From contig OZ029917.1 of NCBI GenBank assembly GCA_964023275.1, forward strand, positions 32,316,005 to 32,380,004: DNA of 64,000 nucleotides, written 5' to 3'. The translations under genes and the position numbers were made by a program. Positions 15,576 to 37,989 of this stretch are shown here, piece by piece. Numbering within the stretch: the first letter of the stretch is position 1; every line of letters begins with the position of its first letter. The notes under the pieces are model-generated. The model saw only the letters and a list, made by a program, of their open reading frames with translations. It was not told the origin of the DNA and did no database searches. The DNA is from Norana najaformis (lineage: Eukaryota; Annelida; Clitellata; Crassiclitellata; Hormogastridae).

Positions 15576-15649
15576 CTAGAAATCTCGTTGGTAATATTGT
15601 TAGTGAGACTAGAAGTGCGCATAATGATTACTAATTTCAATCGCTAAAG

Positions 15650-16284: not shown

Positions 16285-17613
16285 GATTATAAGTCTGATA
16301 TGATGTAATACAACTTATCATGACGCAATATACCATTATGGCTTGGTGTAAGAAACGTAGCTTAACCAACTTCGAAACTTCGCCATTCGTAGCACCTACA
16401 TTATGAGTCTAATCTAGATCACATTAGATTAGTCTGGATTAGAACAGATCGTATCGGATTACATTATGTGAGATTACATTACGTGTAATCTTGTCATCCT
16501 AAGCACATAATTCATCAGTCTATTTTTAAACTAGAGCAAATGAGATTAGATTAGTGTGCATTAATTTGGACTAGATCGGATCAGATTAGATCGGATAAGA
16601 TGATACGAGCTTTACATTAGATGATATTGAGTAAGATTGTATGACATTATATTACGTCAGACATAAGCGTAATTTGGTCCGAAATCTAGCAGTGTGTCTG
16701 TTCGATTGTCTAGAATCTGGTAATATACAGCGTCAATTAAATCTTTACATTACTTGAAAAGACTTGCCTGGTGTAATGAACTATAACAGAGATCTAGTTA
16801 TGTGGTATCTTTCGCCAGTGATTGAAAACCAGTCTACTGAAGAGGTGCAATACAAATGTGTAGTTGCATTTAAAATTATGATTTATTGTAAAATTTATAT
16901 AGCACCTCAATGTAAATAACACATATGTGTCATTAGGTATCATGCTGTAAATAATATTGTACATCAAGTTGAATTAACAAATAACTTTGATTAATTTGCA
17001 ATTTACCGGCTTAACATATAACTAAGATTATGGCTTCGCCATTGCCGTTACGAAATGGCGAATACAGGGAAATTGATCATTCTCTTTAAATCCGGAGCAG
17101 TGCATCTGGTTGAAGTTGTCCTCCGGGAAAACATATTTTCGCCAGAAATTCGTCCCATCCGGTGTGTACCCTACAACTCTCCTTGTTCCTCTCTGGAACT
17201 CTCCATGCTCTACAAAGTGCAATATCTGCTTTTCGTCGAGGTAGGAACGCACTTCAAACGTGAACTTCAGACGAGGTGGGTAGATCTTACTGCGACGAAC
17301 AGTCAAAAGTTGGTCTCGGATGAAGTAACTTTTTCTTCCTACACCAAGACACTCGTGCAGCGACAGTGTAGTTGTGTATGCGGTTGCAGCCTTGAAAGCG
17401 GACACTGTGTTTTGTTGACAGAAAATAATTGTAAGCACTGGTTTTCAAGAAACACCTTTATTTTAAAGGTCAGTAATATTAGTAGGCAGACAATCGGAAT
17501 GGTGTCATTTAGCAGAGTGTAAATCAACTTGCCTTTCACTCATCGGGTTTGGGGTTCGAGTTTCTAGATGCTGTATCAAATCGACAATTAGTTGTCAAGT
17601 ATGGTAATCGGGT
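16285..17613 (-). repeat. Inverted repeat arm A (linker exon 3 plus 3' flank)
   Basis: This arm is the reverse complement of 36355-37684 over about 1.33 kb, with only scattered differences. It includes linker exon 3, its polyadenylation region and AGATTAGA-rich downstream DNA. Homology to arm B stops abruptly near 16285 and becomes patchy beyond 17613, where arm B has about 160 extra bases that are also present in copy C. Confidence 0.9.
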
Positions 17614-17704
17614 ATGAAAAAAGTTTCGCCTTCTCTTACGATATTGACTACATTTAAGATATTCTAATCTTGAGCTCACACGATCGGAACACGAAGTCCT
17701 GAAG

Positions 17705-18047
17705 TAAGGCAGGGAATACGAACGGTTTCAATGTCTGCGTGATGCTGATGCTTTTAGATATGGAGCTTCGATAAAAGATTGTACAAGTGGGTCTTTTATT
17801 CTGACCGTGAAACATAAACATTAGTCTGTGCTTATAATTTAAGTCCCAAGTTCAGGCATGACCTCACAAAGGTCAAGACTAACGTTAAAGTCCTGCGCGC
17901 GTGCATTGGTACTGTATTTCTGACTTGCAAGTATTAAATTATCTGGTTTGTATACAACTGGAAACAATGTGTGAAAACCACTTACATTTTACTATAATGT
18001 ACCCCGAACGCTAGGAGGCACATATTGTCTGGCAATATGACGCCGTC
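17705..18047 (-). repeat. Displaced linker promoter plus exon 1 start, inside intron 2 of copy A
   Basis: About 340 bases match 19112-19445, the 5' flank and first ~24 coding bases of copy A exon 1. Shared are the conserved promoter block (CATAAACATTAGTCTGTGCT, CACAAAGGTCAAGACTAA, TTCTGACTTGCAAGTATTA) and the start region. In this extra copy the ATG has become ATT and the TATA box has become AATAAAA. It joins intron 2 sequence abruptly at both ends, so it marks a rearrangement breakpoint. Confidence 0.85.
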
Positions 18048-18059
18048 ATGTGTCCAGAT

Positions 18060-18310
18060 GCATAAACACATATGAAGATTCATAGAAAGGTAAATGCTTA
18101 CAAAGATGCATACATGCAAAGATGCAGATATACAAACATACAAAAATACATAGTTAGAAAAATATATTGATACACACATAAACATGCATTTAATTATATT
18201 TGCATACAACCACAAAGGCAATACATACTTACGCCCATACATCCATTCGTACATACACAAACATGTTTGCAAGCATGCATGTATACGTGCATACGTACAG
18301 ACATAAATAA
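18060..18310. repeat. Degenerate (CATA)n/ATGCAT intronic microsatellite, copy A
   Basis: Tetranucleotide ACATACAT-type repeats, interrupted by GATGCAT and TTCATAG, fill most of intron 2 next to exon 2. Related arrays sit at the same intron position in copies B (35000-35420) and C (29220-29560). Confidence 0.8.
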
Positions 18311-19196
18311 ATTAAGACGAGCATGAGTTGATACTTACTGTCGCAGAATGCTGGGTCTTCGTCTTTTCCATTCTTGCAGTCCTTGATTCCGTCACAGGCA
18401 AGCATCTCGGAGACACACTGGCGCATGTTTCCACCGCATTGAAACTCATTCTCATTGCATCCTGTAACTGTTAGTAAAACACAATAAAAGTAATGAAAAT
18501 AAGTAAGTAAGAATTTGGTAACACACCATGTATCAACCAGCTCAGCGGGAAGTAGTAATTAATTAATTAATTGCCAGTGAAGACACTAAGCTGAAGTAAG
18601 TTTTGAATGGAATCACATTAAAATGATTAGATTGGTATTGCTATATTTGCGTGTTATTGCTGTTTTTAGTTATTGGGTAGGCCCTATTACATCCTTGAAG
18701 ATGAACCTACTGTTTCATGCATTTATATCTGTAGGCATATGTTTATCTCTTTTCTGCAAATAAATGTATTTATATCCTATAAACTGGACGAGTCGTTAAA
18801 TGTCGACGAATGACTGCAGCATTTAACAAAGAAGATTTTCACCTTAATGAAGGAATCATTCAACTAAGATCGACCTTCAAGCTTTTTAACTCGTAGTGTG
18901 ATATCGTCGTAGATTTTTCCGATGGATGGAGCTGACGACAAGCTGTCCAGTTTCACCCTCAACTTCTATATGCGATCCTCGAGGTCGGCTATGATGTACG
19001 CATTCTGCCTCAGTTGGGGATAACTGCTTATTTCATCATCGGAAGAACTCGATTGTCCGGTACATGTCTTACTCGATCTGACTTCGTTTCTAAGCAGACA
19101 GACGGCAGATAAGGCAAGGATTACAAAGTGCTTCATTGTCTCCGTGATGCTGATGCCGTAAGAGATGGAGCTTCGATGTAAGATTGGATAAGTGAG

Positions 19197-19204
19197 CTTT
19201 TATA
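19197..19204 (-). promoter_or_regulatory. TATA box of linker copy A
   Basis: The minus strand reads CAGTATAAAAG about 60 bases upstream of the ATG at 19136. The same motif and spacing precede copy B, and about 230 bases upstream are conserved between them. Confidence 0.7.
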
Positions 19205-19565
19205 CTGATCGTGGAACATAAACATTAGTCTGTGCTTATGGTTTAAGTCCAAATTTCAGACCTGACTTCACAAAGGTCAAGACTAAAGTCTTGCGCGCAC
19301 GTGGTGATACTGTGTTTCTGACTTGCAAGTATTAGATCATCTGGTATGTTTAAAACTGGAAACAATGTGTGAAAACAACTTACATTGTACTATAATGTAG
19401 CCCGAACGGTAGGAGACACAAATTGTCTGGCAATATGACGCCGTCAGAGTGGCGTTAAACCCGATTGCAATAATGTGGCCTTTTAAGACATCTGTATCTT
19501 ATTCCGTACCACCCTACGACTACCACTAGCGTTGACATCAGTACGTAGTTAAATGTATCTTAAAT

Positions 19566-19626
19566 GTACGCATTCTGCCTCAGTTGAGGATAAATGCTTA
19601 TTTCATCGTCGGAACCACTCGATTGT
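19566..19626 (-). pseudogene. Isolated fragment of linker exon 1
   Basis: The minus strand reads CAA TCG AGT, then Asp-Asp-Glu-Ile-Ser, then CAACTGAGGCAGAATGCGTA, in frame QSS-SDDEIS-YPQLRQNAYI. It then stops at TAA where the intact exon continues with ATAGCC. About 60 bases of the coiled-coil exon lie upstream of copy A, with no start or splice context. This is a relic of a further linker copy or of the rearrangement that built copy A. Confidence 0.75.
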
Positions 19627-19629
19627 CTT

Positions 19630-20615
19630 TATTCCTTTGCAAGACACTGTCTCCTCCAGACCAATCATCTGAATTCTGACCTGCACCGACCTAACAATTT
19701 GGATCTGAAGGACTTGATTTATTTGCATTTCCTCATTCATTAAGCGCGATTATCGAACGAATAAGCATTCAAGCCCTTGTGAGAAAAGAAATTGCTCAAG
19801 ATTTATGCACAGAAAACGTTTAAAATGAATCGCACAAGTCTGTGCGTTAGACGCCGAGCCCTCAATTCAGTCAACTGCCGGCTCCCAACGGGTATATCTC
19901 GCCGGTAAATAAGTTGCTCTTCCAGACGCAGCTTTTGTGTTGCGTCGAGAAATTTCTGAGATTTACATTTATAACTTTCTTCGAAACCGGACAAAATTGA
20001 CTGGAAGCATATCAAGTAAATGTTTTTTTTGACACCGAACAGTGAATATTTGTGGCCACAACCAAGCCTGCTCTTAATAGACAATATGTGTAGGAGTGCA
20101 TTTCATTTTGGAGGTCGATGTCAACGGCCACTGATATTTTGCGTCTGTTTTGTAACTCATTTAGTTTATATCCTTTCGACTCGAATTCAGTCTTGACCTC
20201 AGCTTCTGTCGATCGACGTCGTGTTGACGCTGACCGTGTGTTAAGATCTTTAGACCACTCCCTTCTTTTTATCACCATTGTCTGATTCTATTTTCCGCAG
20301 ATCCAAATATATCTTTCAGACTTTGAACCCAAATGACACCGCATGCCCTTTCTCCGTGTCCGACCTTCTGTCTCTCTCTCCTTGTCTGTGGCGGCCTGTC
20401 TGTTTTTATGGTAGTCTGAACTCCTTTTCTACAAACTGTCCTGCTATGTAACTAAGCAGTTTTTTTGCTGTGCTTGTCGATTGTACGCAGTGTCCAGAAA
20501 AAGAAACTCCAGATAAATTACAATGATGTTAACGTTGATTTGATCCGGTTGTGTCAGTTCATTGATTAATTAGTTAATTCACTAATTCGTGTAGTCTATT
20601 CATTCGATCAGGCGA
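19630..20615. other. No recognised gene
   Basis: Two minus-strand frames (20084-19803, 93 codons; 20278-20012, 88 codons) are charged and lack recognisable motifs. Confidence 0.35.
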
Positions 20616-20619
20616 TTTC

Positions 20620-23600
20620 ATCATCATCATCATCAACAACCGTGGGCTCAATGCCCGTAGGTGTCTGATGCCCGTTTCACAATGTGTCTCCACTCGATTC
20701 TATTTTGAGCCGCATGTCCCAGTCTCTGCAAGTCCGCGCCACACCACTCCTCAATGTCATCCACCCACTCTCGATGTGGTCTGCCTCTCTTGTTCGTACC
20801 TTCCATAATTCCAAACATCAGAGTCTTAATATTTCTGTCATCCTTCATTCTACAGATATGTCCAAACAATCCAAGTTTTCGCTGAATAACCTTCTGCAGT
20901 AGATTCTCGGTTATAGCCACTCTTTCGTAAACCTCTTCATTCCTAATCTTCTGAGTCCATCCGATCCTTAGGATTTTTCTGTAACATTTTCTCTCAAATG
21001 CCAAGACTCTCCGTCGTGAGTCTTTTGTCAGGACCCATGTCTCACATCCATACATCATGGTGCTAAATACACATGTCTTTAATACCTCCAGTTTTGTTTT
21101 CATGCTGATTGCTCTGCTCTTCCAAGTTTTATCCATTGCTTTCAACACTGCTATTCCCCTCGCTATTCGTATCTTTATTTCACTTTTGCAATCTAGGTCA
21201 TATGTCATATTACTTCCAAGATAAGTGAACCTCTCTACATTCTCCAGCTGCATTCTTTCAACCACTATCTGCTGGGTGATGTTTTTGTCGCCAAATACCA
21301 TTGTTTTTGTCTTATCAAAGTTCATGTACAGTCCATATTTCTTTGCTTCTTCATTCAGCATTCGTGTTGTGCATTCCAGCTCTGTAGGTCCCTCCTCCAA
21401 TATGTCCACATCATCTGCAAAACGTAAATTGTTTATGCATATTCCCTGAACTGATATTCCTTTGCTCTTGACCCTGTCCATTGCTCTTTCCAAATCTGTT
21501 ATAAACACCATGGGCGATATTGGATCGCCCTGTCTCATACCCCTGTTGGTTCTAAACCACGGTCCCAACTTGCCACATGTCCTGACCGCCGCTTGTGAAG
21601 TACCATTTATGTCTCGTAACAACTGAATCAGTTTGTTGTCAACCCCATACGATTGTAGAACGGCCCATGTCACGTTCTGGTCTACACTGTCAAATGCCTT
21701 CTTAAAGTCTACAAAACAGTTGTATACCTTTTTATTCTTTCGCCTTGCTTTTTCTGCTATTAGTCTTAAAGCCAAGATTTGTTGTATCGTGCTTCTATCC
21801 TTCCGAAATCCCGCCTGCTCATCCGTCAAGTATTCCTCCATCTGGCTCCTTAATCTTTCCGCCAATACCATCATCAGCACCTTGCCCAGGTGGCTTATCA
21901 GCGCAATGGTGCGGTAGTTGTTACATTCCAATGGACTTCCCTTTTTGTAGATTGTTACCAATATCGACTTCTTCCACTCTTCCGGTGCTTGTCCTTGCTC
22001 CCATGCCATGTTACATAACCTGTGGATTTCACCCAACAGAAGATCTCCTCCATGCTTGATCATTTCTCCCATGATGTTGTCTCTACCAGGGCTTTTATTG
22101 TTTTTTAACCTTGTTATCGCTTTTTGAACTTCCTCTAACAATATGTCTGTGTTTGTTTCCGTCGTCGGAGGGGAGATAGCCTTTAGTTCTTTTATTACCT
22201 CTCTAGTAAGATCTTGATTTGGCTGTTCGCTATATAATTCACTGCAATATTCCGTCCATCGCTGTATTATATCTTCCTTTGTTGTTAGCATTTTAGCCTT
22301 CTCGTCTTTTATTGCTGTGAGTCTCGGTTGCCAGTTTCTGTTTACATTTCTTATCATTTTGTAGACTTCTCTGCTTTTGCCTTCTCCAAAGTTCTTTTCA
22401 ATTTCCCTGCACTGCTGTTCCAACCATTGTGCTTTATCCTCTCTTGCTGCCTTCCTCACCCTGTTGCAACTCTCCTTGTATTTCCGTTCTGCTATCTGTG
22501 ATGTGTCTCTTTTGAGTTTTAGCTCCCTCTTTTCCTGTATCAGCCGCAATGTCTCCTGTGTTATCCACTTTTGCTTGATCTTTTCTTCTTCTGGAACCGC
22601 CTCCTCTATCGCATTGTTTATTGCTGCAGTTAGTTTTTCTGTTCTGCTTTCCAAGTCCTGCTCTTCCTCAAGTTCTTTTAAATTCCTTCCTAACGCCTGT
22701 TGGTACTTGATCCTGGTAGACTCCTCCTTCAGTCTTTCAATGTTCCTTCGCTCCACAAAGCATGGCTCATGCTTTTTCTTTAGCTTCAGTTTGATGTTTG
22801 CCATGACCAAGCTGTGGTCCGAGTCTATGTCAGCACCTTGAAAAGTACGGCATAGTTGAACTGCTGTGTTCCACTTTCGTCTTATTAAGATCATATCAAT
22901 CATGTTTCTTGTTTGTCCATCACTGGAGCGCCATGTCCACTTTCGACATTGTTTTTGTTGGAATCTTGTATTGCAGATGGTCAGGTCATTGTCTACCGCA
23001 AACTCCAGTAGTCTTTCACCCCTTTCATTCCGGTCTCCAAAACCATATTTGCCCATAACTCCTTCCCATCCCGTTCTATCAGTACCGATTTTAGCGTTCC
23101 AGTCTCCTCCAATTATGAGTGTATCCTTCTTCTGTACCTCTCCGATCAGCTCTGTCAACTTTGAGTAGAAGTCTTCAATCTCCTCTTCACTGCTTTCAGC
23201 CGTTGGTGCGTAAACCTGAATTGTTGTTATGTTGAATGGTTGTGCACTGAACTGTGCCAGCATCATCCTTTTGTTCACGGGTCTGTAGCGGATGAGTGCA
23301 TTTCTGGCTCTGTTGCTGAGCAGAAATCCCACTCCTGCCTCATGTCTGCTGGGATCTCCAGACCATATTATTCCTCCATTCCTCATCTCGCCTGATTGTG
23401 TCCAACGCATCTCTGATATTCCAAGTATGTCGCATCTGTATCTTGACATTTCCTCTTCCAGCATCTCCAGCTTCCCTGCCGCCCATAGGGTGCGGACATT
23501 CCATGTGCCCACCGATATCATTTCTCTTGCGGGCTTCAGACTTTTTCTTTCGGTAGCTAATTTGTCGATCCAACCCCGATCGCTCGATTGGTTTCGCGGA

Positions 23601-23820
23601 CCTTGTTTTACCGGGGGACGTCCGAGCCGGCATGTACTTGCATCCTTTTTGTTTGGCATCAGATTTCAATCGTCTTGGTTTTTACTGCCAGAGTATCGAC
23701 ACCCATCTGGCAAACCTTCCTCCTTTATCCGGGCTTAGGACCGGCGCAAGGGACTGCTGGCTTGCAGTCCCCTGTGGCGGAGTTTCAGGCGATTTACATA
23801 ACGTCAAAAGGAGCATGTTA
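20620..23820 (-). mobile_element. RTE-type LINE, near full length
   Basis: A minus-strand non-LTR element with one long intact ORF (20648-23659). It has a 5' region to about 23820 that includes GCCGGTCCTAAGCCCGGAT and AAAGGAGGAAGG, seen again as a relic at 30775-30870. The very short 3' UTR ends in (TGA)n at 20620-20632. Short 3' UTR, simple-repeat tail and single EN-RT ORF fit the RTE clade. I could not fix the 5' boundary or target-site duplication. Confidence 0.85.
20648..23659 (-). CDS. RTE endonuclease-reverse transcriptase polyprotein
   Basis: The 1003-residue ORF is uninterrupted. APE-like endonuclease residues are visible at 52-58 (TWNVRTL), 83-85 (EMR), 183-190 (IGGDWNAK) and 280-282 (SDH). 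Next comes a basic, Glu-rich coiled linker (about 300-440). The reverse transcriptase has LKNNKSPGRDN near 518-528, CNNYRTIALIS near 580-589, FVDFKKAFDSVD at 649-660, RGMRQGDPISP at 706-716 and FADD at 747-750. The C-terminus carries MMYGCETW, then FGHICRMKDDRN and GRPHREWVDDIEEW, typical of RTE/BovB-like elements, which lack RNase H. Such proteins nick DNA and copy their RNA into it. The absence of stops suggests a recent insertion or continuing competence. The ATG at 23659 is the first in frame; an upstream start cannot be excluded. Confidence 0.9.
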   Translation of the reverse strand: MPNKKDASTCRLGRPPVKQGPRNQSSDRGWIDKLATERKSLKPAREMISVGTWNVRTLWAAGKLEMLEEEMSRYRCDILGISEMRWTQSGEMRNGGIIWSGDPSRHEAGVGFLLSNRARNALIRYRPVNKRMMLAQFSAQPFNITTIQVYAPTAESSEEEIEDFYSKLTELIGEVQKKDTLIIGGDWNAKIGTDRTGWEGVMGKYGFGDRNERGERLLEFAVDNDLTICNTRFQQKQCRKWTWRSSDGQTRNMIDMILIRRKWNTAVQLCRTFQGADIDSDHSLVMANIKLKLKKKHEPCFVERRNIERLKEESTRIKYQQALGRNLKELEEEQDLESRTEKLTAAINNAIEEAVPEEEKIKQKWITQETLRLIQEKRELKLKRDTSQIAERKYKESCNRVRKAAREDKAQWLEQQCREIEKNFGEGKSREVYKMIRNVNRNWQPRLTAIKDEKAKMLTTKEDIIQRWTEYCSELYSEQPNQDLTREVIKELKAISPPTTETNTDILLEEVQKAITRLKNNKSPGRDNIMGEMIKHGGDLLLGEIHRLCNMAWEQGQAPEEWKKSILVTIYKKGSPLECNNYRTIALISHLGKVLMMVLAERLRSQMEEYLTDEQAGFRKDRSTIQQILALRLIAEKARRKNKKVYNCFVDFKKAFDSVDQNVTWAVLQSYGVDNKLIQLLRDINGTSQAAVRTCGKLGPWFRTNRGMRQGDPISPMVFITDLERAMDRVKSKGISVQGICINNLRFADDVDILEEGPTELECTTRMLNEEAKKYGLYMNFDKTKTMVFGDKNITQQIVVERMQLENVERFTYLGSNMTYDLDCKSEIKIRIARGIAVLKAMDKTWKSRAISMKTKLEVLKTCVFSTMMYGCETWVLTKDSRRRVLAFERKCYRKILRIGWTQKIRNEEVYERVAITENLLQKVIQRKLGLFGHICRMKDDRNIKTLMFGIMEGTNKRGRPHREWVDDIEEWCGADLQRLGHAAQNRIEWRHIVKRASDTYGH

Positions 23821-24589
23821 AGCGGCTTCCCAGATATACCAAACCAGATGGATAATTGCAGAATAAAAAATGTTGTGATCGACGGTGTCAAATGGTGCAC
23901 TGGCATCAAACATGGCAAAATCATAAACTCAACCCTCCCCGTGGCGCAACATACTGTATATCTGAAAGAAAACGAACCGAGAGGCACTCAGTCGAATTGG
24001 TTTTTCATAAAACCAGATTGCTTGACTGTGGTAAAATTGTTAGAATTTAGATACAGTGTTATTTGAGAATCAACAATTTTTTCACTGACAAGAATTCCCC
24101 GTTAGACGTAGGTCGTTAGTTGGCCATCTCACCTTGATCGAGTCTTCTGCAAAAGTTTCTTAAGCCCGTCCACCTCTTAATCTCGTTCTATAGCATAATT
24201 CTTATTTTAACATTAATATTCATTAACAATTGTTTCTTTTTAATTGAATGCAACTAAGGATTTTTTAAGTAATACACCTAATAAGCATAAATTCTGAATA
24301 ATAAATAAGGGAAAATTCTTTGTTCATTTTAAATTTAAAACTGTTTTGCTCATATTAATCGAGTATGCCAAATTATTTCTCTTAACACAATGTAAATTAA
24401 GGTCAAGAAACGGTGTTTCAATCGCATCAGAGCGACAATTATGTTTTTAAATTTAAAAGATGGATATCTGTGTTTTTCATATCTTTATCCAGTGTTACGA
24501 TCACGGAATGTCTGCTGAAGAATGACATCGTTCACATACCTATTGCATTGTATTGTATTGATTGTATTTGATAACTTACATGTATATAC
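23821..24589. other. No recognised gene
   Basis: AT-rich with scattered short frames. No repeat or motif was recognised. Confidence 0.4.
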
Positions 24590-25260
24590 CGCTTCGTACA
24601 GATCAAACAACTCAGAGGCGCTTCCAGCATGAGGACCCCGGGGAAATAAGAACATCTTTAAACAACAAGCTGACTGAGCTCTATCACCAACAGTGACCCT
24701 TGCACGAAACGATAGCGAAAGTTCATTCTATGGAGATGGGCCAACAACAGCAAAAGCCCTCTGCTGAGCAAGCGAGGACTTGACACGAGAAACAAATAGA
24801 TCCAGACGGTCTAGAGAACGTATAGAACGGGATGAGTACTGGAGGCCGAATAAGATCAGAAAGATATTTTGGAACCTGGCCCATGAGAGCTCTAATTTTT
24901 GAACTCAATACGAGATTGGATAGGGAGCCAATGAAATTGCTGAATGATATAATCTGAAATACGAGAGAAACGCGGAAGATTTGATATTAACTTGGCCGCA
25001 GAATTTAGTATTGATTGAAAGGAGGACAGCCGATACTTAGGCAAACCAGCAAGCACATAGTTGCAGTAATCAATGCGACAACATATCATGGAATGAATTA
25101 TAGTAGTAAAGACAGAGGAAGAAACAGAACTACCCACAAATCTTAAACGCCTTAATTGGTAGTAGCAAGACCGAGTCAAACTAGAAACATGGTTTGCGAA
25201 GGTAAGGTTACAGTCAAGTATAACTCCCAGATTACGAACACTAGACGAAACTATAAAAGA
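24590..25260 (-). mobile_element. CR1/L2-like LINE, truncated 3' end
   Basis: Minus-strand frame 25179-24892 reads RSCYYQLRRLRFVG, then CCRIDYCNYVLAGLPKY, LSSFQSILNSAAKLI, then FHWLPIQSRIEFK. The next frame (24908-24723) reads GQVPKYLSDLIRP and then FSRPSG. Adjacent-frame text gives RVKSSLAQQRAFAVVGPSP. All are standard C-terminal blocks of CR1/L2-type RT. At least two frame breaks are present. The 3' end lies at about 24560-24600 with an ATACA-rich tail. Confidence 0.8.
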
Positions 25261-26780: not shown

Positions 26781-29330
26781 GCTTAGATCGGATTGGATCA
26801 GATAAGATTAAGTATATGAGATTTCATTACATGACATTAATCAAGATCGAATTACATCATATTTCATGAGATATAAACGTAGTTTGGCCCGTAGACTGTC
26901 GGCGAGTCTGCTCGATTGTCAAGATTTCTGGATATGTACTGCGTCAATTAGATTTTTATATTCATTTATAGGGACACTGTATTGAATTTAGGTCTGACTC
27001 TAAACAGCTTAGTGATGTCATAATTCGATTAGAACAACTGGTTCTAGTGCAGATATTTAATCGTCGACTTGAACTATTTAGGTTGTATTAAAATGTAATA
27101 TGATGTAATATAACTTCTCATTATGCAATACAGCATAATGGTTTGGTGTAATCAACTGTACCAGAGGCATAGTTATGCAGTATACTTTGCCAGTGAATGA
27201 AGACCAATCTATTGAAGAGGGGCAATACAAATGTTTAGTTACGGTAAAGATTACGAATAACTGTAAAATTTATATGGCGCCTCAATGTAAATAACAGAGA
27301 CGTGTCATTAGGAATCATGCTGTAAAGGATAGTGCAGATAAAGTTGCTAAAAAGATTTAACAAATCGTTTTGACCAATTTGTAATTTACCGACTTAACTT
27401 GTAACTAAGAGTATGGCTTCGAAATTGTCATTACGAAATGGCGAGCACAAGGAAATTGATCATTCTCTTTAAATCCGGAGCAGTGCATCTGGTTGAAGTT
27501 GTCCTCCGGGAAAACACATTTTCGCCAGAAATTCGTCCCATCCGGTGTGTATGCTACAACTCTCCTGGTTCCTCTCTGGAACGCTGTACAAAATGCGTTA
27601 TCTGCTTCTCCTCGAGATAGCTACGGGCTTCATCCATGAACTTCAAACGAGGTGGGTAGATCTTGCTGCGATGAACAGTCAAGAGATTGCCTCGGAAGAA
27701 GTAACTTTTTCTTCCTCCACCAAGACACTCGTGCAGCGGTATAGTTGTGTATGCGGTTGCAGCTTTGAAAGCGGACACTGTGTTTTATTGACAGAAAATA
27801 ATTGTAAGCATGCACTCTCTCGATTAAAAATCAGCTTTAGGTTAAAGGTTAATAATAATAGTACGCAGACTATCGGAATGGTGTCATTTAGCAGAGTGTA
27901 AATATACCTGCCTTTCACTCATCGGGGTTTGGGATTCGGGTCTCGATATGCTATATCAAATCAACAATTAGCTGTCAAGTATAGTAATCGGGTATGAAAA
28001 AATTTCGGTTGCCAAATGCTGTTGTCGTGTTTGCCGAATGATCTTAAAACCCCAGAACCACCTTCCACAAGACAAGTGTTAATACAAGCGTGTGGTAAAA
28101 GAACGGTACGACACATGAATTAAAAAGTAAGCTCACGTTTCCCCTATTACATTCGCCTTCTCTTTTGATATTGGTCATATTTAAGATATTCTAAGCTTGA
28201 GGTCGCACGATCGGTTACGGGGGCCTGAAATAAAGTGTCGATCATTCAGATAAATTCATTGAAAAATGAGCAGGGTCGCGGCCTTAATGTCTTGACCGAA
28301 ACGTCAAGTTCACGATCCCAACACACTGAAACTCCACCGAAAGGTACCTTGTGCAGGAAATATTCGCTTACTGAGAGTGAAGCCGTGAAGTACTAAATCA
28401 TTGCGAGAAGACAGGAAGAATGTTCGCCACTTAGAAGGACTGCTAATTGGTGAAAAACTTGTTAGCTGAAACAGAATGCTATTCTAAACAATATTACCAA
28501 CACGTCAGCGGCATATAAGCTCTTTTGTTGGTGTGTCGTCAATTTCAAACCTCCCACAGAGTTGGAAGTCTATAGCTTACCCAGACTTTTCGCCATATTC
28601 TGACTATATGCTAATGCACAATTGCATTCAGTAATCAGCAGGACATAAACGTCGTCGAATAAATAAGAGAACTGTTTCGTGAGATTACCCCGAGAGGCGT
28701 CAATGAAAATCAAGGACTTCATTTTTCTAAGCCTCAGCCTATGAGGAGGCTTCGTAAGTGCTATCTCTCGCCGCTAATTACTCATATGCTTATAGTGCAT
28801 GTGCAGTGCAGCCCTACCCGAGTGATAGAAATTGATAGAAATTGATAGAAATTACACTTTTAAATTACACTTTTAAATTAGTCGCACGCTTATGGTCTCA
28901 AAAAAGAATCTGAATTGCATTTAGAGATACATTAAAATCGAAAACGAACGCTATTCCCTTCGAGTCTAACGACAGTTATAAAACGTGATATATGTAGATA
29001 TCACACTACAGGCCTGGATTTCGGACCCGGGTCACTGGACGTGAAAATGAAGGGCATAGTTGTATGTCTATCTCAATCTTAAGAAACACTTTTGCACACA
29101 AAACCAGAACTTCAGAAATATTCCAAAAAGATTTCCAACTTATATTGAGACGCACCTTTTTAGGTTTCTCAGAAGGTCAAGTTTCAGAGCCTTTAAGAGG
29201 GTCATAAAATAAACCACATAAGAGTCCAGCCGCATATACACATATGAAGATTCATACAAAGAGGCATAAATACCGAAATATATAAACGAATACAAAGATA
29301 AATGCTGACAAAGATGCATATATACAAACA
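26780..29330 (-). repeat. Linker copy C duplication block (3' flank, exon 3, intron 2)
   Basis: This block is homologous, in the order expected of the minus strand, to the copy B 3' flank (AGATTAGATCGGAT-type repeats, TGATGTAATATAACTT), exon 3, and intron 2. Intron matches include TTGGTGGAAAA-like CACCTTCC near 28055, GAGGTCGCACGATCGG, the AGTCTGGATAAGC block, and CAGAAGGTCAAGTTTCAGAG near 29170. It diverges from copies A and B more than they diverge from each other. Exons 1 and 2 were not found to the right of it. Confidence 0.8.
27410..27777 (-). pseudogene. Linker chain exon 3, copy C (frameshifted)
   Basis: The acceptor AAAACACAG is kept and the exon reads SAFKAATAYTTIPLHECLGG, then RKSYFFRGNLLTVHRSKIYP and PRLKF. 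One codon is missing relative to A and B (in ...PLHEC). A 7-base deletion near 27582 then shifts the frame and leads to a stop after REEPGEL. The terminal TAA of A and B is TAC here. No LDL-A exon or signal exon lies upstream in the expected place, where unrelated sequence and microsatellite are found. It is therefore a dead last exon. Confidence 0.85.
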
Positions 29331-29560
29331 TACAAAACTACAGAGTTAGAAATATACACGAAAACATACGTTCATGCATACATACATGCGTACGAACTTG
29401 CATACAAAGACAAGATGCATACATTAAAATGCATACATATGAAATGCATACATACATTCAAGCAAACATACATACATGCATACGTACATACATGCATGCA
29501 TAAAAAATACATACATACATAAATGAATGCATGCATAAAACATACATACATACAACAAGA
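29220..29560. repeat. (CATA)n/ATGCAT microsatellite in the copy C intron
   Basis: Long interrupted ACATACATAC and CATGCATGC tracts fill this interval. It corresponds to the intron 2 array of copies A and B and is the longest of the three. It accounts for the Cys/Tyr/Met-rich open frames on the minus strand here. Confidence 0.85.
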
Positions 29561-29851
29561 CAACAAGAAAAAACCAGACAAAACAGACAGACGAGACAGA
29601 TGATAAAAGTTAGATCTCGAAGCTTCATTAATTCTGTTGCCATGGTAATTCAAACGGACACTATTTTCAAGAGCAAACGATTGCTCAACTACCGTTGCAG
29701 GCTCTGAGGAGAGACAAACGAACTTAATTTTGGCTATTAGTAACCATGACGACCGTTGCTGTAACGTCGGAAGGGTCTTCTCTGGCGGGACTTTCATCGG
29801 CTTACTTATGCAGTGAGAGGTCACCTGCATATTTTACGAAAGCTCTTATTA

Positions 29852-29918
29852 ATAGTAATAATAATAATAATAATAATTATTATTATTATTATTAGTAGTA
29901 GTAGTAGTAGTAGTAGTA
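29852..29918. repeat. (AAT)n-(ATT)n-(AGT)n palindromic tract
   Basis: About nine AAT units are followed directly by about eight ATT units and then seven AGT units. The AAT/ATT part is a perfect inverted repeat able to form a hairpin. Confidence 0.9.
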
Positions 29919-30774
29919 ATGATGGGCTTGGTTGTTTTCATGGCAACTTTGACAGACTTATTAATTACTGATCAAAATTTAGTGCACAGGATTCAAATGA
30001 TTATTTCTGCTGTTTGATGTGTTAGTATTGTAAACTTGTATAACGCATTTTAGAACCTCACGAAAGTGCTGCCAACATGGCTTTCTGAAAGAAAAAGACC
30101 TAAACAGGTGCACTGTAAGATAACCAGAAAGTGTAACATGAGTTGAGTTAGATATTACTGTCTAAAGTCTTTTAAAGGTCTGTCTAGATTAATTTACAAT
30201 TATTATAATATCGATATCTACTCAGTGAACGTGTTTTGAGAGTGGATTCCCATATACATGTCTCTTTAGGACGAGATCATAATAGAATTTGTGTATGTGA
30301 CATGAATTAATAAATTTCTGTGTGACAATCAGTTTCATTTCTTAAAATTATGGCACAATGCATGTACACTTAGACTGCTGATGTGCACATGAATGCTTCA
30401 CATCAATATGGATAATGGAAAGCGTAGAGTCTGGATACCCTTCAACCACCAGGTCTGTGAAGAACAATATACTTTAGCAGATATTTATTGTTCGTTAACT
30501 TGGTTAAAGAACACTTTTAAATGAAAAAACTAAATGTCGCTTTCTTATGCTTGTAAGACGTTCGACCTGAATGTACATTGTGCCCAGAAAAAAACAATTA
30601 GGCAAATTGGATTAATTGGATCAAATATTGATTAGAATTCAATATTAGCAAAGAATTTTTCCTCACTCATAAAGGCCTAATATTAAGTACTTATGGTTTA
30701 TTAAACGTATTTCTAGATAAAATCCTTTCAAATCCCTTTTGTCCTTCAAAATTATGGTGCAAAACGCTTGCTTA
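29919..30774. other. No recognised gene
   Basis: AT-rich sequence without recognisable coding or repeat structure. Confidence 0.4.
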
Positions 30775-30870
30775 AAAATAAATCCACCACTGCCTTGTTT
30801 GGAGGTAGTGCCAGTCCCAAGCCTGGATAAAGGAGGAGGGCGACGGCAAACGCCTTTGCATAAGCTGTCG
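30775..30870 (+). mobile_element. Relic of RTE LINE 5' region
   Basis: CAGTCCCAAGCCTGGATAAA, then GGAGGAGGG and GGCAAACGCC, parallels the 5' region of the minus-strand RTE element (CCGGTCCTAAGCCCGGAT, AAAGGAGGAAGG). Only about 95 bases are recognisable and no ORF follows. Confidence 0.55.
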
Positions 30871-30970
30871 TTAAACTGAGGAGCTACTATTTGCTTAAAA
30901 ATTTCCGGAGAAAGGATGGCCATTTGGCGGTCTTAACCAACTTCTGCAAATGACTCGATCCAGTCGATAT

Positions 30971-31310
30971 TGTGAATTACCAACCTATATCTAACCTATG
31001 TCTAAAATTACTGAAAAAATTCTTGCTTCTCGAATAAAACAGCAGGTAGAGCCTAAAAGTTGTCTCCCGGTAAATCAGTCTGGTTTTAGGAAAACCATTT
31101 CACCGAGTCCCTCCTGGTTCGCCTGCTTTAGAATATATACGGCGCAATGCATATGGCCAAGATTACACTTCTGGCCTGTTTTGATGTCAGCCAAACTTTG
31201 ACAAGTTCGATCATGACATTCTTATTTGCCAATTATCCATCTCATTTAGTGTGTTTGGTAAGCCGCTCGACAGGCTTTGCACCTTTTTGCTCCTGTTTGG
31301 CCTTATATAA
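30971..31310 (+). mobile_element. LINE reverse transcriptase fragment
   Basis: Translation across two frames gives NYQPISNL, then SKITEKILASRIKQQVEP, then PVNQSGFRK. This is the RT finger region (NYRPISNL-SKI-E, then Q-GFR) of CR1-like LINEs. A further frame gives CLF-CQPNFDKFDHDILI, resembling the DFSKAFD-VDH block. It is broken by frameshifts and ends in the ATGA-type microsatellite at 31318. Confidence 0.65.
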
Positions 31311-31317
31311 CTGCTCT

Positions 31318-31376
31318 AAATGAATGAATGAATGAATGAATGAATGATGGAATGAATGATGGAATGAATCAATGAA
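31318..31376. repeat. (AATG)n microsatellite
   Basis: AATGAATG units run for about 60 bases, interrupted twice by ATGG. Confidence 0.9.
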
Positions 31377-32110
31377 TGTACTTACAAAAAAGCAGATCCG
31401 ATCAGCGTCAACATTGTTGTAATTCATGTCGGGTCTTCTTTTTCCGGACATTGCATACAATAGGCAAGTAGAGCAGAAGGTGCTTTGTTATATTGCGAAA
31501 GAGTTTGTAAAAAGAAAGAGTTCAGCAAAGCATACAGGCAGACAGATCGACACAGACAGATAGACAGAAGGACGGATATGGAGAGAGGGCATACAGATTC
31601 ATTTGGGTTCAAAGTCTCAAACATTTATTTGGATGAGCAGACAATAGAATAAGACTATAGTGTTGACAAGAAAAGAGAGGGACTAAAAGATACAGGGTGA
31701 AGATATAGGTCAACAGGAAAATAGGAAAGAAGACATCATGGCTGAGTGGGAAGGAGCTAAGAGATATGCGAGGGAATGAAGGAAAGACAAGAAGGGAAAG
31801 ATTTTGTTACATTTAGCTGTCGCTCGCAATGGTACTGTCTGAATGTTAGTATAAAACTGAGTTACGCAGTAACAAAGGCTCATTGCAGTTGTGATTTGTC
31901 ACTGGCGAAAACCTATTTAGGCTATGCATCAGTAGGAAAGTTTGAATATGTTTTTTGTGCAAAGCGCCCTCGTTCATGACACATTGCAGGAATCGCCCGT
32001 AAGTAGTGACTTTCCCACATCGTGGGACGGCAGTTTTGGGATCCAGAAAACGCAAAAAATTGGAGAAATCTGTAGATTTGTTTCCTTTATAGCACATGGT
32101 ATAGAATAGT
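31377..32110. other. No recognised gene
   Basis: Purine-rich patches (31500-31800) with short frames and no recognisable motif. Confidence 0.4.
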
Positions 32111-32305
32111 GTGACACGATATCCGTTCGCCTTCTAACGCTGAGTGTAGGGGTCCAAACCTCCTCTGCGACGGTTAACGGTTACTATAAAGGGACCTCGA
32201 GCAACTCCTTGACTCACAATCGCTCGTCGACATCGATTCATGCTTAGTCGTTGCATAGTGTTGCTTAATAAGCGAGGAAATAATAATGAGAATTAAAGTC
32301 CTCAA
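32111..32305 (+). mobile_element. tRNA-derived SINE, copy 1
   Basis: From about 32180 this aligns with the SINE at 42245-42435: ACGGTTACT, GGACCT-GAGCAA-TCCTT, GACTCACAAT, CATCGATTCATGCTTAGTC, GCTTAATAA and an AATAATAA-rich tail. The 5' third is a degenerate tRNA-like head in which the B box is recognisable as GGTCCAAACC. It sits about 600 bases upstream of the linker copy B start. Confidence 0.7.
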
Positions 32306-32469
32306 GAGCCAGACTATTGCGTCAGCTTTGGTACCAAATCAGAATCCTGTCTGTCGGGAAAGGTGGAAAGCTTTTCTGATGGCGACGGTGGTCGTAGGAT
32401 AATCCAGAATCGGGTGCACTATAGGTATGTTCAAAAAGTTAACATTACTGTTAGTAGGCCCTAGGCCAC

Positions 32470-32782
32470 AGTAACGGCGTCATATTGCCACACAATTTGT
32501 GCCTACTAGCGTTCAGGCCACATTATTGTAAAGTGTATGTTGATTTCAGACAATGTTTCTATTCCTATGCAAACCAGAAAAATTCATACTGGCATGCCAG
32601 ATATACGGTGCAAGCTCGCATAACTTCAAGGTTAGTCTTGACCTTTGTGGGGTCATGCCTGCAACTTGGACTTAAACCATAAGCACAGACTAATGTTTAT
32701 GTTCCACGATCAGTATAAAAGGCCCACATGCCTAACATTCCCTCCAAGCTCCATCTCTTCAGGCATCAACATCACGAAGACA
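32470..32782 (+). promoter_or_regulatory. Conserved linker promoter, copy B, with TATA box at 32714-32721
   Basis: GGCGTCATATTGCC opens a block of about 250 bases. The block includes AGGTTAGTCTTGACCTTTGT and CATAAGCACAGACTAATGTT, then CAGTATAAAAG at 32711-32721. All recur in the same order upstream of copy A exon 1 and in the displaced fragment in copy A intron 2. The TATA motif is 62-69 bases before the ATG, giving a short 5' UTR. Confidence 0.75.
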
Positions 32783-33044
32783 ATGAAACTCTTTGTATTC
32801 CTTGCCTTGTCTGCCGTTTGTCTGCTCTGCAGCGAAGTCATTTCGAATGAGACTCGTAGCGAACAATCTACTGCTTCCGATGATGAAATAAGCAAATATT
32901 CCCAACTGAGGCAGAATGCATACATCATAGCCGACATCGAGGATAGCATACAGAAGTTGAGAGTGAAACTGGACAGCTTGTCGTCAGCTCCGTCCATCAG
33001 AAAAATCTACGACGATATCACACTGCGAGTGAAACGGCTTGAAG
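32783..33044 (+). CDS. Hemoglobin linker chain copy B, exon 1: signal peptide and coiled coil
   Basis: The ATG at 32783 begins MKLFVFLALSAVCLLCSEV, a hydrophobic signal peptide, followed by an acidic stretch (SDDEISKYSQ). A heptad-like helix follows: LRQNAYIIADIEDSIQKLRV, KLDSLSS, then DDITLRVKRLEG. Linkers of annelid hexagonal-bilayer hemoglobin are secreted and have this N-terminal coiled coil, which trimerises and reaches the hemoglobin dodecamers. The exon is 262 bases and ends at GAAG/GTTGGT in phase 1. I chose this start because the longer in-frame reading upstream crosses the TATA box and lacks a signal sequence. With exons 2 and 3 it gives about 255 residues, normal for linkers. Confidence 0.87.
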
Positions 33045-33096
33045 GTTGGTGTTAGTTGAATGATCGCTTCATTAGAATAAAACTCTTCTTTCTTAT

Positions 33097-33788
33097 ATTA
33101 CTCCTTAACATATCCATATATCTCGTATTGCAACATTGCTTGGGCTACCACATATCATACTCGCCTGTGTAATTTTAGAACACTACAGAATCGCATCATC
33201 AGAATTATATTTAATCTATCCTTCAGAGCCAGCACTCGACTGTCCTTTCATAGTCACGGAATATTGCCTTTTGATTGTATTAACAAGTTGCAAATAGGTC
33301 TATTTATGTTTAAACTAAAAATTAATCTATTGCCTGTGGCCTTCTACCAATACTTTTATATGAATACAGATGTGCATGGTCATTATACGCGCTCATTTCA
33401 TATGTATCATAAACATTCTGTTCGCACTACTAATAGACAGTTTAGTATTAGAATTTGTGGACCGTGATTCTGGATATCTCTGCCAACTGTTCTTACTAGA
33501 TTGCCAACTTTACACCAATTCAAAACAAGTCTAAAATCTCATATACACAATGCACTTAGTTAAGTTTTTTGTTTGAGTTTATGCACTGACACTGATTATA
33601 TTATTTACCTTATATTTTAGATTATTGATTGTTTTACTCAGTATTATACTGTCACCTATTTGTAACCCATGATGTAAATAGGCGACCTTCGTAGCGGAAC
33701 TGTTTGTTCCTTTCAGGTCAGCCCATTGGGACCAATTTATATTACAGACTATGATTGTATTTGTTAATTATTAAATCTCTCTCTCACT
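33097..33788 (+). mobile_element. LINE 3' end inserted in intron 1 of linker copy B
   Basis: Translation gives YCNIAWATTYHT, LQNRIIRIIFN, FRASTR, then LPFDCINKLQIGLFMFKL, RQFSIRICGP and FWISLPT. This is the C-terminal RT region of a LINE of the type with LQKR-IRII and QFSIR-GP-FWNSLP. The flanking intron sequence (TTCTTT on the left, TTGTTAAATGCT on the right) is contiguous in copy A intron 1 (CTTCTTTGTTAAATGCTG), so the insertion limits are clear to within a few bases. There is at least one in-frame stop. Confidence 0.8.
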
Positions 33789-34254
33789 TTGTTAAATGCT
33801 CTGCTCAGTCTTCGACATTTAGCGATTGATCCGGTATGTACTGTTTTAATACATTTATTTTTAGAAAAATATAAACACATCCTACTCTGAAACTAAAAAA
33901 TAGCAAGAGCCATCACGTAGAGCCCTACCAATCTAATCATTTCAAGGTGATTTCATTCAAAATTTAAATAAAATTGAGTTCCCATATGATTAGAGCCATA
34001 AGCCTAGAATATCACACCTTAAAGTCAAATGTTAATCAGCATTTCTCGAGGTCTTGAGAGACTTTTAAGTACACTTCCGGTAAATAATCTCAGACTTAAT
34101 GGAGGACGATATCAGCTAAAAGTTGGCATTTAATGTGGCGATAGAAGTCCACGTTATCAATGTCTTTGAAATCGAATATACTTTCGTTCTTAATAATTAT
34201 TTGTTTTTTATATTATTTTGACTTCCTGTGAAGCAGATAGACAATATTTCAAAA

Positions 34255-34630
34255 TTGATATAATTTCCTACAAGATAATGCTTGATGTTCAAACGCCCCA
34301 TCTCCCAAAATCCACCAAGTCCTTTGATTTTCTTTATCTTCTACGTTGCCTCGAGTAACTAAAACTCGTTGTGAGAGGGCTTTCCTGATGCTAGGCCATG
34401 ATTCTGGAACACACTTCCTCAATCTGTTTGCACTGTTGAGTCCTTAGTATCTTTCCGTTCTCGCCTTCAGAAGTTTTTTTTCTGTTTGCTCATTCTCCTT
34501 ACGCTGACCTTTACTTCATCGGATTGACTCTCGGAAATGACTGGATTGAATTATGTTTTGAAGATCCATCGATTAATAACAAGTGCAGCATTAAAATGGT
34601 GCCATAGAAGTACTTAGATTAGATTAGAAT
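34255..34630 (+). mobile_element. Second LINE 3' end in intron 1 of linker copy B
   Basis: Broken frames give GTCGTTGTGAGAGGGC-type RT tail text: RCERAFLMLG, then GTHFLNLFALLSP and LSVLAFRSFF. These parallel the GERAFS-AGP-FWNSLP-S-RS terminal block of CR1-like RT. It is absent from copy A intron 1. The surrounding interval 33990-34715 has no counterpart in copy A and may be entirely inserted material. Confidence 0.55.
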
Positions 34631-34844
34631 TGAAAGTAGATAAATTAATTGAAGTCGACTTGTACTATAAATTTATCACTCAATTTTCTATCGGTGCCAC
34701 AGCTGCAGTAGAGCATAGTTTATACCCTTGCAATTAATTAATTAATTAACTAATTAATTAATTTCTATTTCTCGCTGGTTTACATACGGCGTGTTACGAA
34801 ACGCTTACAAACTTGATTACTTTACTTATTTTTTATACTAACAG

Positions 34845-34973
34845 GTACAGGGTGCAGGGAGGGTGAGTTTCAATGTGGTGGAAACATGCGTCAGTGTGTC
34901 TCCGAGATGCTTGCCTGTGACGGAATTAAGGACTGCAAGAATGGAAAAGACGAGGACCCAGCATTCTGCGACG
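34845..34973 (+). CDS. Linker chain copy B, exon 2: LDL receptor class A module
   Basis: The acceptor CTAACAG and donor GACG/GTAAGC bound a 129-base exon that is phase 1 at both ends. It encodes TGCREGEFQCGGNMRQCV, then SEMLACDGIKDCKNGKDEDP and AFCD. The six Cys and the acidic DCKNGKDED-type calcium site are those of an LDL-A repeat. In linkers this module follows the coiled coil and helps build the central assembly; a cassette with symmetric phase-1 introns is the usual form. Compared with copy A, differences are confined mainly to the first residues. Confidence 0.9.
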
Positions 34974-34999
34974 GTAAGCAGCTACAGACGTAGTTTTAC

Positions 35000-35420
35000 G
35001 CACATATTTATGTGCGTAATCACTCATGTTTGAATGCATGCTGGCATGCATACGTTCACACGTACGTATGTATATGCGAATGCATGTATAGGCGTAAGCA
35101 TGCATTGCTTTTGTGGATGTATGCATGCATAATTATATGCATGTATATGTGTGTATTTTTGTATGTATTTATTTTATGTGTATGCATATTGTATATATGC
35201 ATCTTGTCTTTTTACGCAAGTACTTACCTAGACATGTATATATATATGTATGTATTCATGTATGTCTCTATCTATATATTTATGTATGCTTGTATGTATG
35301 TGTTTTTGGATGTATTATGTATTTATCATGTAAGCATTTATCTTTCTATTATTTTTTTGTGTTTCTTGGTATTTAAACGGCTTTTAATTTATCTTTATAT
35401 ACTGTATATATATAAATCTG
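35000..35420. repeat. (TATG)n/ATGCAT microsatellite in intron 2, copy B
   Basis: GTATGTAT, CATGCATG and TATATATG tracts fill the interval, the complement of the arrays in copies A and C as expected from the opposite orientation. The long Tyr/Cys/Met-rich open frames across it are artefacts of the repeat. Confidence 0.85.
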
Positions 35421-35454
35421 TGCGCGTCTGGAAACGTATATGGTTTATTTTATG

Positions 35455-36354
35455 AACCTCTTCAAGGCTCTGAAACTTGACCTTCTGAGAAACCTACAAA
35501 GGTGCGTCTTAATATAAGCTGGAAATCTTTTTTGAATATTTCTGAAGTTCTGGTTTTAAGTGCAAGGCTGCTATGAAACCTCTCCCTACGCTAAAATTTA
35601 GAAAAATGAAGTCCTTAATTGTCATAGCCGCCTTTTCGAGGTAACCTCACGAAGCAGCTCTCTTATCTGTTACACAATTTTTATGTTCTGCTAAAAATTT
35701 AGTGAATTGTGCATTAGAGATAGACTCAGAATGTGGCGAAGAGTCTGGATAAGCTACAGCCTCGCCCACAAGAAAGCTTATGGGCCGCTGACCTTTTGGC
35801 AAATTGTTTAGAATAGCATTATATTTTAGCTATCAAGTTTTTCAGCCACCAATTAGCAGTCCTTCTAAGTGGCGAACTTTGTTCTTCATTTCTCGCAATG
35901 AATTACTACATTATAGCTCTACCATCTGAGAGCGAGGTTTTCTAAGAAGCTTTAATTCTCGATGAAGTTTTAGTTAGTCGGGAACTGGACCTTGACGTTT
36001 TGGTCTAGAAATGTAAATGTACGTTTTTATATAGCGGCACTAAGGCCTTGACCCTGCAATTTTTCAGTGAATTTATCTGATGAAATCCTTCATCACTGCT
36101 GCCCATTTGAATGGGCGACACATGAGGACTTCGTGTTCCGATAGTGCGAGCTCAAGTTTACAATCTCTGAAATATAACCAATATCTTAAGAGGAGAAGAA
36201 TTAAAACGGAAAACATTAACTTACGTTTTAGGTCATGTGTGGTTACTGTTATTTTACCCACACACTTGTATTTACACTTGTCCTTTGGAAGGTGGTTCTG
36301 GGTTTTAAGATCATTTGGCAAACACAACAACAGCATTTGGCAAACGAAATATTT
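35455..36354 (+). other. Intron 2 of linker copy B, homologous to copy C intron
   Basis: This is intronic sequence matching copy C (28030-29190) in reverse complement, including AAACTTGACCTTCTGAGAAA and the GAGTCTGGATAAGCTA block. A short piece (36120-36150) also matches copy A just beyond its displaced promoter fragment. No coding features. Confidence 0.7.
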
Positions 36355-36567
36355 TCATACCCGATTACCATACTTGACAACTAATTGTCGATTTGATACA
36401 GCATCTAGAAACTCGAACCCCAAACCCGATGAGTGAAAGGCAAGTTGATTTACACTCTGCTAAATGACACCATTCCGATTGTCTGCCTACTATTATTACT
36501 GACCTTAAAAATAAAGGTGTTTCTTGAAAACCAGTGCTTACAATTATTTTCTGTCAACAAAACACAG

Positions 36568-36944
36568 TGTCCGCTTTCAAGGCTGCAACCGCATACACAA
36601 CTACACTGTCGCTGCACGAGTGTCTTGGTGTAGGAAGAAAAAGTTACTTCATCCGAGACCAACTTTTGACTGTTCGTCGCAGTAAGATCTACCCACCTCG
36701 TCTCAAGTTCACGTTTGAAGTGCGTTCCTACCTCGACGAAAAGCAGATATTGCACTTTGTAGAGCATGGAGAGTTCCAGAGAGGAACAAGGAGAGTTGTA
36801 GGGTACACACCGGATGGGACGAATTTCTGGCGAAAATATGTTTTCCCGGAGGACAACTTCAACCAGATGCACTGCTCCGGATTTAAAGAGAATGATCAAT
36901 TTCCCTGTATTCGCCATTTCGTAACGGCAATGGCGAAGCCATAA
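36568..36944 (+). CDS. Linker chain copy B, exon 3: C-terminal globular domain
   Basis: The acceptor AAAACACAG joins in phase 1 to the LDL-A exon, giving CD-V-SAFKAATAYTTTLS. The domain continues with LHECLGVGRKSYFIRD, then KIYPPRLKFTFEVRSYLDEK, VVGYTPDGTNFW, MHCSGFKENDQFPCIRHF and ends at TAA 36942-36944. Its Cys pattern (HEC, then HC and PC) and position after LDL-A fit the beta-barrel domain of linkers. The exon encodes 124 residues after the junction codon. Its product is identical to that of copy A exon 3 although exon 1 differs, which points to gene conversion or a recent duplication of the 3' half. All splice sites and the frame are intact, so copy B is the one likely functional gene here. 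Confidence 0.87.
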
Positions 36945-37084
36945 TCTTAGTTATATGTTAAGCCGGTAAATTGCAAATTAATCAAAGTTATTTGTTAATT
37001 CAACTTGATGTACAATATTATTTACAGCATGATACCTAATGACACATATGTGTTATTTACATTGAGGTGCTATATAAATTTTAC

Positions 37085-37090
37085 AATAAA
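37085..37090 (+). terminator. Polyadenylation signal of linker copy B
   Basis: An AATAAA hexamer lies 141 bases beyond the stop codon, in a conserved AT-rich 3' UTR shared with copy A. Confidence 0.55.
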
Positions 37091-37757
37091 TCATAATTTT
37101 AAATGCAACTACACATTTGTATTGCACCTCTTCAGTAGACTGGTTTTCAATCACTGGCGAAAGATACCACATAACTAGATCTCTGTTATAGTTCATTACA
37201 CCAGGCAAGTCTTTTCAAGTAATGTAAAGATTTAATTGACGCTGTATATTACCAGATTCTAGACAATCGAACAGACACACTGCTAGATTTCGGACCAAAT
37301 TACGCTTATGTCTGACGTAATATAATGTCATACAATCTTACTCAATATCATCTAATGTAAAGCTCGTATCATCTTATCCGATCTAATCTGATCCGATCTA
37401 GTCCAAATTAATCCACACTAATCTAATCTCATTTGCTCTAGTTTAAAAATAGACTGATGAATTATGTGCTTAGGATGACAAGATTACACGTAAATGTAAT
37501 CTCACATAATGTAATCCGATACGATCTGTTCTAATCCAAACTAATCTAATGTGATCTAGATTAGACTCATAATATAGGTGCTACGAATGGCGAAGTTTCG
37601 AAGTTGGTCAAGCTATGTTTCTTACACCAAGCCATTATGGTATATTGCGTCATGACAAGTTGTATTAAATCATATCAGACTTATTACAAATAGCTCAAGA
37701 TTGCGATTAAATTTCAGCATTAGAACCATTTGTTTTTATGGAATTGTGACATCACTC

Positions 37758-37955: not shown

Positions 37956-37989
37956 AGCTGACTGACCGACTGACTACGGAACAAAGTAC

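Follow-up and report, generated by a model that had tools for sequence, protein, structure and literature searches.

How do two genes come to share a last exon almost to the base when their promoters and first exons are clearly diverged? A 64,000-nucleotide stretch of the annelid Norana najaformis (assembly GCA_964023275.1, contig OZ029917.1, here C5, positions 32316005-32380004; below, the window) poses this question. It carries two genes, A and C, related to the linker chains of annelid haemoglobin, and the 3' part of each lies in one arm of an inverted repeat. A first-pass annotation made from the letters alone proposed either gene conversion between the arms or a very recent duplication of the 3' half, with an assembly artefact as the dull alternative. 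We argue that the arms record a recent interlocus gene conversion within a duplicated, rearranged piece of a linker-gene array, with C as donor and the pseudogene A as recipient. We put the probability of this reading at about 0.83.

How alike are the arms, and where does the likeness stop? Self-BLAST of the window aligns 16289-17628 (minus strand) with 37684-36345 at 98.96% identity; the 1341 columns contain 12 mismatches and two gap openings. No other inverted pair in the window self-BLAST comes near it in score; the next, 27144-28756 with 37203-35572, is 77% identical. After trimming, the arms and the exons within them are as follows.

16289..17620, minus strand: A arm of the inverted repeat, C-type sequence, with 11 substitutions and one indel against the C arm
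36352..37684, plus strand: C arm of the inverted repeat, from self-BLAST and window identity
17028..17404, minus strand: exon 3 of the composite A, encoding the beta-barrel domain, with a protein identical to that of C by translation
36568..36944, plus strand: exon 3 of gene C, by translation

Inside the arms every 50-base window has 47-50 identical positions. At the inner end identity drops to 26/50 and 17/50, and at the outer end to 27/50; the first-pass annotation had staked its reading on such steps, and both are there. Exon 3 of A differs from that of C at a single base, a silent G/C change at 17268/36704. Exon 1, by contrast, has accumulated 12 synonymous and 21 nonsynonymous changes; promoter and exon 1 together are 81.4% identical, and the exon-2 region 76.0% (self-BLAST). 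The earlier description thus stands as to the arms of about 1.33 kb, the silent change in exon 3 and the divergence upstream. Identity within the arms is uneven, however. The inner 1,141 bp (16480-17620) hold four substitutions and the indel, whereas the outer 191 bp hold seven substitutions.

Where does this sequence come from? Searches of the genome (608 Mb, 17 contigs) trace the block at 16.3-38.05 kb to a linker-gene array on the same contig, at a distance of 4.4 Mb, of which it is a rearranged copy. Block X, with gene C, matches the home of another linker gene, D, over 8774 columns. Block Y runs from 29456 down to 18119, includes a third linker copy, B, and is collinear with a second piece of the array in segments of 94.9% and 92.1% identity; the collinearity is broken by an RTE-type element, whose target duplication was read by eye as AAATCGCCTGA. 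Since X and Y both match pieces of the array, the block is array sequence with X inverted relative to Y.

29290..37960, plus strand: block X, 94.0% identical to C5:36755136-36763824 (gene D)
18119..29456, minus strand: block Y, interrupted by the RTE-type element, collinear with C5:36767979-36776148 (92.1-94.9%)
20619..23784 (wider limits 20608..23795), minus strand: RTE-type element with a 1005-codon open frame, 11-bp target duplication and an empty site in the array copy
16289..16290, no strand: structural junction of block and unrelated flank, where similarity of the flank to C5:32033849-32034550 ends at 16290

Over 15583-16290 the left flank is 94.6% identical to that distant segment, and because the match ends at the block, the repeat ends on its outer side at a structural junction. 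What happens at 16289 is that a duplicated block meets unrelated DNA; it is not the edge of a recent tract. The left flank is itself duplicated (14652-16290 of the window) near C5:32.03, 32.04 and 31.36 Mb at 92-97% identity. No pre-insertion site for the whole block was found in the genome, the right flank yielding nothing beyond scattered matches of 64-80%. We also considered an old palindrome homogenised in its 3' part alone, and dropped it when the genome search showed two array pieces, one of them inverted. At 37758-37960 of the window lies a tandem duplication of 104 bp, 98% identical; overlapping matches suggest another repeat number in D.

Throughout the block D is closely related to C as its sister, and it can therefore be used to polarise the arms. 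Over the inner 1.14 kb or so, 58 sites unite A and C against D, one unites A and D against C, and five unite C and D against A; two of these five (17621 and 17623) fall just beyond the point at which A switches type. In the outer 0.19 kb the corresponding counts are 3, 4 and 3. The contrast of 58 to 6 with 3 to 7 gives a Fisher p of 9e-5, and the longest run of sites uniting A and C against D, 37, a permutation p of 0.00045. Exon 3 of D is unusually diverged, contributing 35 of the 58 sites, and the count was therefore repeated without it: 23 to 3 inside, 3 to 7 outside (p 0.0013). Beside the tract C and D differ at 32/1338 positions just upstream and 9/276 just downstream.

These patterns bear on the alternative that survives best, one recent event of inverted duplication, by fold-back or template switch, that joined the 3' end of C to the remnants now called A. 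It would account for an outer end that abuts unrelated DNA and, equally, for a direction from C to A. It also predicts a single age for the whole arm, whereas non-coding differences between A and C number 3/762 in the inner part and 7/193 in the outer part (p 0.0009). In that outer part, several times more diverged, A, C and D are about equidistant, D being as close to A as C is. The first-pass suggestion of a recent duplication of the 3' half does not fit as one event, on the same ground.

What was A before it acquired its C-type end? It is not one member of a simple diverged pair, as first described: A is a fusion of two gene remnants, A1 and A2, and carries an in-frame TAG in exon 1. Going downstream, its promoter and exons 1-2 resemble a gene at C5:35.826 Mb; a second promoter and exon-1 start follow, with TTG replacing ATG; then comes a piece of intron 2 of the type found in the array copy g36783, and finally C-type sequence from the switch, in the region of 17621, down to 16289. 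Exons 1-2 and exon 3 of A thus derive from different remnants. The exon-1 stop is also present in g36769 and g36783; the other 11 of the 14 translated copies have no stop before the C-terminal end.

18047..20387, minus strand: remnant A1 (promoter, exons 1-2), 96.8% identical to the gene at C5:35.826 Mb
18875..19136, minus strand: exon 1 of remnant A1, in-frame TAG at 18966-18968, by translation
18339..18461, minus strand: exon 2 (LDL-A) of remnant A1, by domain match and translation
17702..18052, minus strand: remnant A2 (second promoter, exon-1 start, start codon TTG), 93.2% identical to C5:36813076-36813425
17621..17705, minus strand: intron-2 piece, g36783 type, with the same deletion of about 150 bp as g36783

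In which direction was sequence copied? Within a shared 16-mer (17605-17620), A turns from the g36783 type to the C type; no such change occurs in C or D. This would make A the recipient. C is continuous with D across both edges of the tract, a donor test made with a single sister copy. In a genome search with 36200-38100, in which 40 of 76 candidates were scored, D at 95% was the closest match to the tract apart from the two arms. The recent tract has its inner edge at 17605-17620 and its outer edge within 16434-16559, inside sequence that aligns among A, C and D. A homologous switch within 16 shared bases also speaks against a single duplication, which we regard as unlikely. The roughly 150 bp missing from A at the inner edge were considered as the tract edge and rejected, since g36783 has the same deletion, which must then be older than the tract.

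16480..17620, minus strand: presumed recently converted tract in A, from the A/C/D site patterns and the switch point
36352..37492, plus strand: presumed donor tract in C, with C and D continuous across both edges
16289..16479, minus strand: outer, older part of the A arm, patterns 3, 4 and 3

From this evidence we infer gene conversion as the type of event and C to A as its direction. A break in A would have been repaired with C, about 19 kb away and inverted, as template, and about 1.1 kb of A, comprising the end of intron 2, exon 3 and the 3' flank, would have been overwritten. The homogenised exon 3 may have been tolerated in A through A's loss of function; selection for differing barrels would not oppose homogenising A, because A is broken. 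The array offers what appears to be another conversion, judged from the pattern of types. Copy g36777 (C5:36775794-36777887) is of A type on both sides of a D-type stretch of about 1.9 kb, which begins at about 36775.9 kb, within exon 2 or shortly after it, ends at about 36777.8 kb, late in exon 3, and has a gradual downstream edge. Conversion between the arms, one of the two original proposals, thus gains support from the site patterns with D, from the homologous switch and from this second tract; the outer arm end is structural.

Could the assembly have created the likeness by copying or misjoining one arm? Repeats this alike, at a distance of about 19 kb, are well known to mislead assemblies. 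Yet the arms differ at 11 bases and one indel, unevenly spread and in different contexts; A's switch falls in sequence common to a third gene; and g36777 is a comparable chimera elsewhere in the array. We consider an artefact very unlikely. Strong purifying selection holding exon 3 alike in two old copies would explain the identical proteins, but we reject it because the non-coding inner tract is equally alike, and in addition A has its in-frame stop and other close pairs differ much in exon 3, for example by 20 nonsynonymous to two synonymous changes between g36743 and g36750.

Several points weigh against gene conversion from C to A as we read it. It draws on a single assembly. Informative sites are few, 26 in the non-coding inner tract and 10 in the outer part. 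The outer part implies that A had an end of C/D type before the recent event, so that the inner switch may predate it. The source could also have been an unsampled donor allele or a copy that was not scored.

The window's other linker copies are C and B. Gene C is an open three-exon gene of 253 residues by translation. Copy B, at about 26.8-29.5 kb, is broken, its exon 3 lying in two frames with one TAA. Exons 1 and 2 of B were looked for and not found; the join near 29290-29456 corresponds to intron 2 of B's counterpart. Elsewhere in the window, an open frame at 48806-49159 encodes a C-type lectin domain (E 1.5e-7).

32783..33044, plus strand: exon 1 of gene C, by translation
34851..34973, plus strand: exon 2 (LDL-A) of gene C, by translation and LDL-A match
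26822..29456, minus strand: copy B, exon 3 broken, from self-BLAST and genome matches

Are these genes linkers? The LDL-A domain of C scores 32.3 bits (cut-off 24.1), and its N-terminal part is a probable coiled coil. Against PF16915, the C-terminal domain of annelid erythrocruorin linkers, C scores 21.7 bits, below the cut-off of 27; the paralog g34389 reaches 28.3 bits, and several array copies also exceed the cut-off. Used alone as a query, exon 3 of C returned nothing at E 0.001. A five-member profile, however, matches Lumbricus linker L2 (5m3l_N, 2gtl_N) over coiled coil, LDL-A and barrel at E 1.4e-28. The predicted structure of exon 3 has a mean predicted local distance difference test score of 84.4; in a fold search with it, the eight best of 518 matches (E up to 10) are Lumbricus and Glossoscolex linker chains, the first, 2gtl_N, with a template modelling score of 0.78 by query length. 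Coiled coil, LDL-A and beta-barrel come in the linker order, as the LDL-A match, profile match and barrel model agree. On the profile and fold matches, the linker label of the first-pass annotation is sound as homology; a role in haemoglobin assembly is putative. Exon 3 of A and C has a tyrosine where the family nearly always has cysteine (WRKC), at a position that aligns with a cysteine of Lumbricus L2.

The family is large. A genome search started from exon 3 of C gives 68 matches, the window's own copies counted, 63 of them on C5; 49 cover nearly the full length at an identity of at least 45%, and 47 of these 49 are stop-free. Exons 1 and 2 were also read, for 14 copies only. An array of linker-like genes lies at C5:36.69-37.15 Mb, outside the window, and twelve matches of 30-36% identity at C5:36884424-37059700 are interspersed with the main copies and may be a second subfamily. 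PF16915 as query gives 29 genome matches, in which the C5 copies score below the seven strongest. These seven, at C16:5184930, C9:15200985, C1:14.71 and 32.20-32.22 Mb and C3:48.07 Mb, are apparently ordinary linkers. Our searches of a library of open-licence papers listed no earlier account of an expanded linker array, and passages on Lamellibrachia gave no linker count.

Why should the identity of exon 3 in A and C attract attention? In many close pairs of the array this exon is more diverged than introns and 3' flanks. In g36982-g36970 it shows 25.8 nonsynonymous to 6.2 synonymous changes, with flanks differing at 1/120 and 1/57, and in g36743-g36750 exon 1 is identical. Other close pairs show no excess: g36726-g36702 has two to six, and g36709-g36735 no changes. 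In 39 copies, A left out, the nonsynonymous rate (Ka) exceeds the synonymous rate (Ks) in 67 of 741 pairs, 66 of which have Ks below 0.3; where Ks is below 0.2 it does so in 56 of 111. Site models favour M2a over M1a for exon 3, with twice the log-likelihood difference at 33.2 and 28.6 in two groups and 39.7 for eight intact genes, against 3.1 for exon 1 and 0 for exon 2 as controls; the mean omega of exon 3 in these genes is 1.17, a value that does not differ demonstrably from 1. Recombination weakens such tests. A recombination-tolerant test on 13 disjoint pairs gave a whole-exon ratio of 1.12. With sites chosen from the other group the ratio was 2.65 (1.64-3.40, three pairs) in group 1 and 1.33 (0.32-2.36, ten pairs) in group 2; a stricter site cut gave 2.60 (0.94-12.55) and 1.77 (0.35-4.61), both intervals including 1. 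Diversifying selection on exon 3 is likely in one subfamily and open in others. Part of the excess may have been imported by conversion: the flanks of g36982-g36930 differ at 1/120 and 0/57, yet exon 3 has a Ks of 0.146.

One could go further and see in the array a germline repertoire of cassettes, with flanks and introns kept alike by conversion, the barrel diversified by selection and copied tracts, broken copies such as A and B serving as reservoir, and a binding or recognition role for the barrel in place of a scaffold. We hold this to be unlikely. We know of no recognition function for linkers, in contrast to plant NBS-LRR proteins and the major histocompatibility complex (MHC).

How does the locus compare with known systems? 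The process is familiar; the gene family is unusual. As in interlocus gene conversion described in a review (PMC3924818), a patch of high identity between paralogs has sharp edges and one-way copying. According to the same text, conversion occurs mainly above 80% identity and yeast tracts average 200-500 bp; by that measure the tract here, about 1.1 kb, is long, and g36783, a stand-in for A's earlier type, is 79-90% identical to C across 36325-36850, near the threshold. The typical case portrayed there also differs in that the recipient here is a composite pseudogene in inverted orientation. As to the genes, coiled coil, LDL-A and beta-barrel follow in the same order as in linkers of annelid hexagonal bilayer haemoglobin (erythrocruorin), with Lumbricus L2 the best match. 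Published accounts give 1-11 transcribed linkers per species (PMC6400237), four linker genes in Alvinella (PMC12403961) and six linkers in Riftia (PMC8789280); unlike those sets, this one has tens of copies, mostly on one contig, with a fast-evolving exon 3. A directional conversion tract with a clean sister copy is thus found in a linker family far above those published counts. In a respiratory scaffold family whose beta-barrel exon departs from its flanks, one can now ask whether haemoglobin assembly or a new binding role is involved. Plant NBS-LRR resistance clusters and the MHC (PMC3113787, PMC12674619), multigene families in which conversion goes together with diversifying selection, resemble the array in their clustered copies, chimeric members and pseudogenes, and in that some close pairs have an excess of nonsynonymous changes in one domain.

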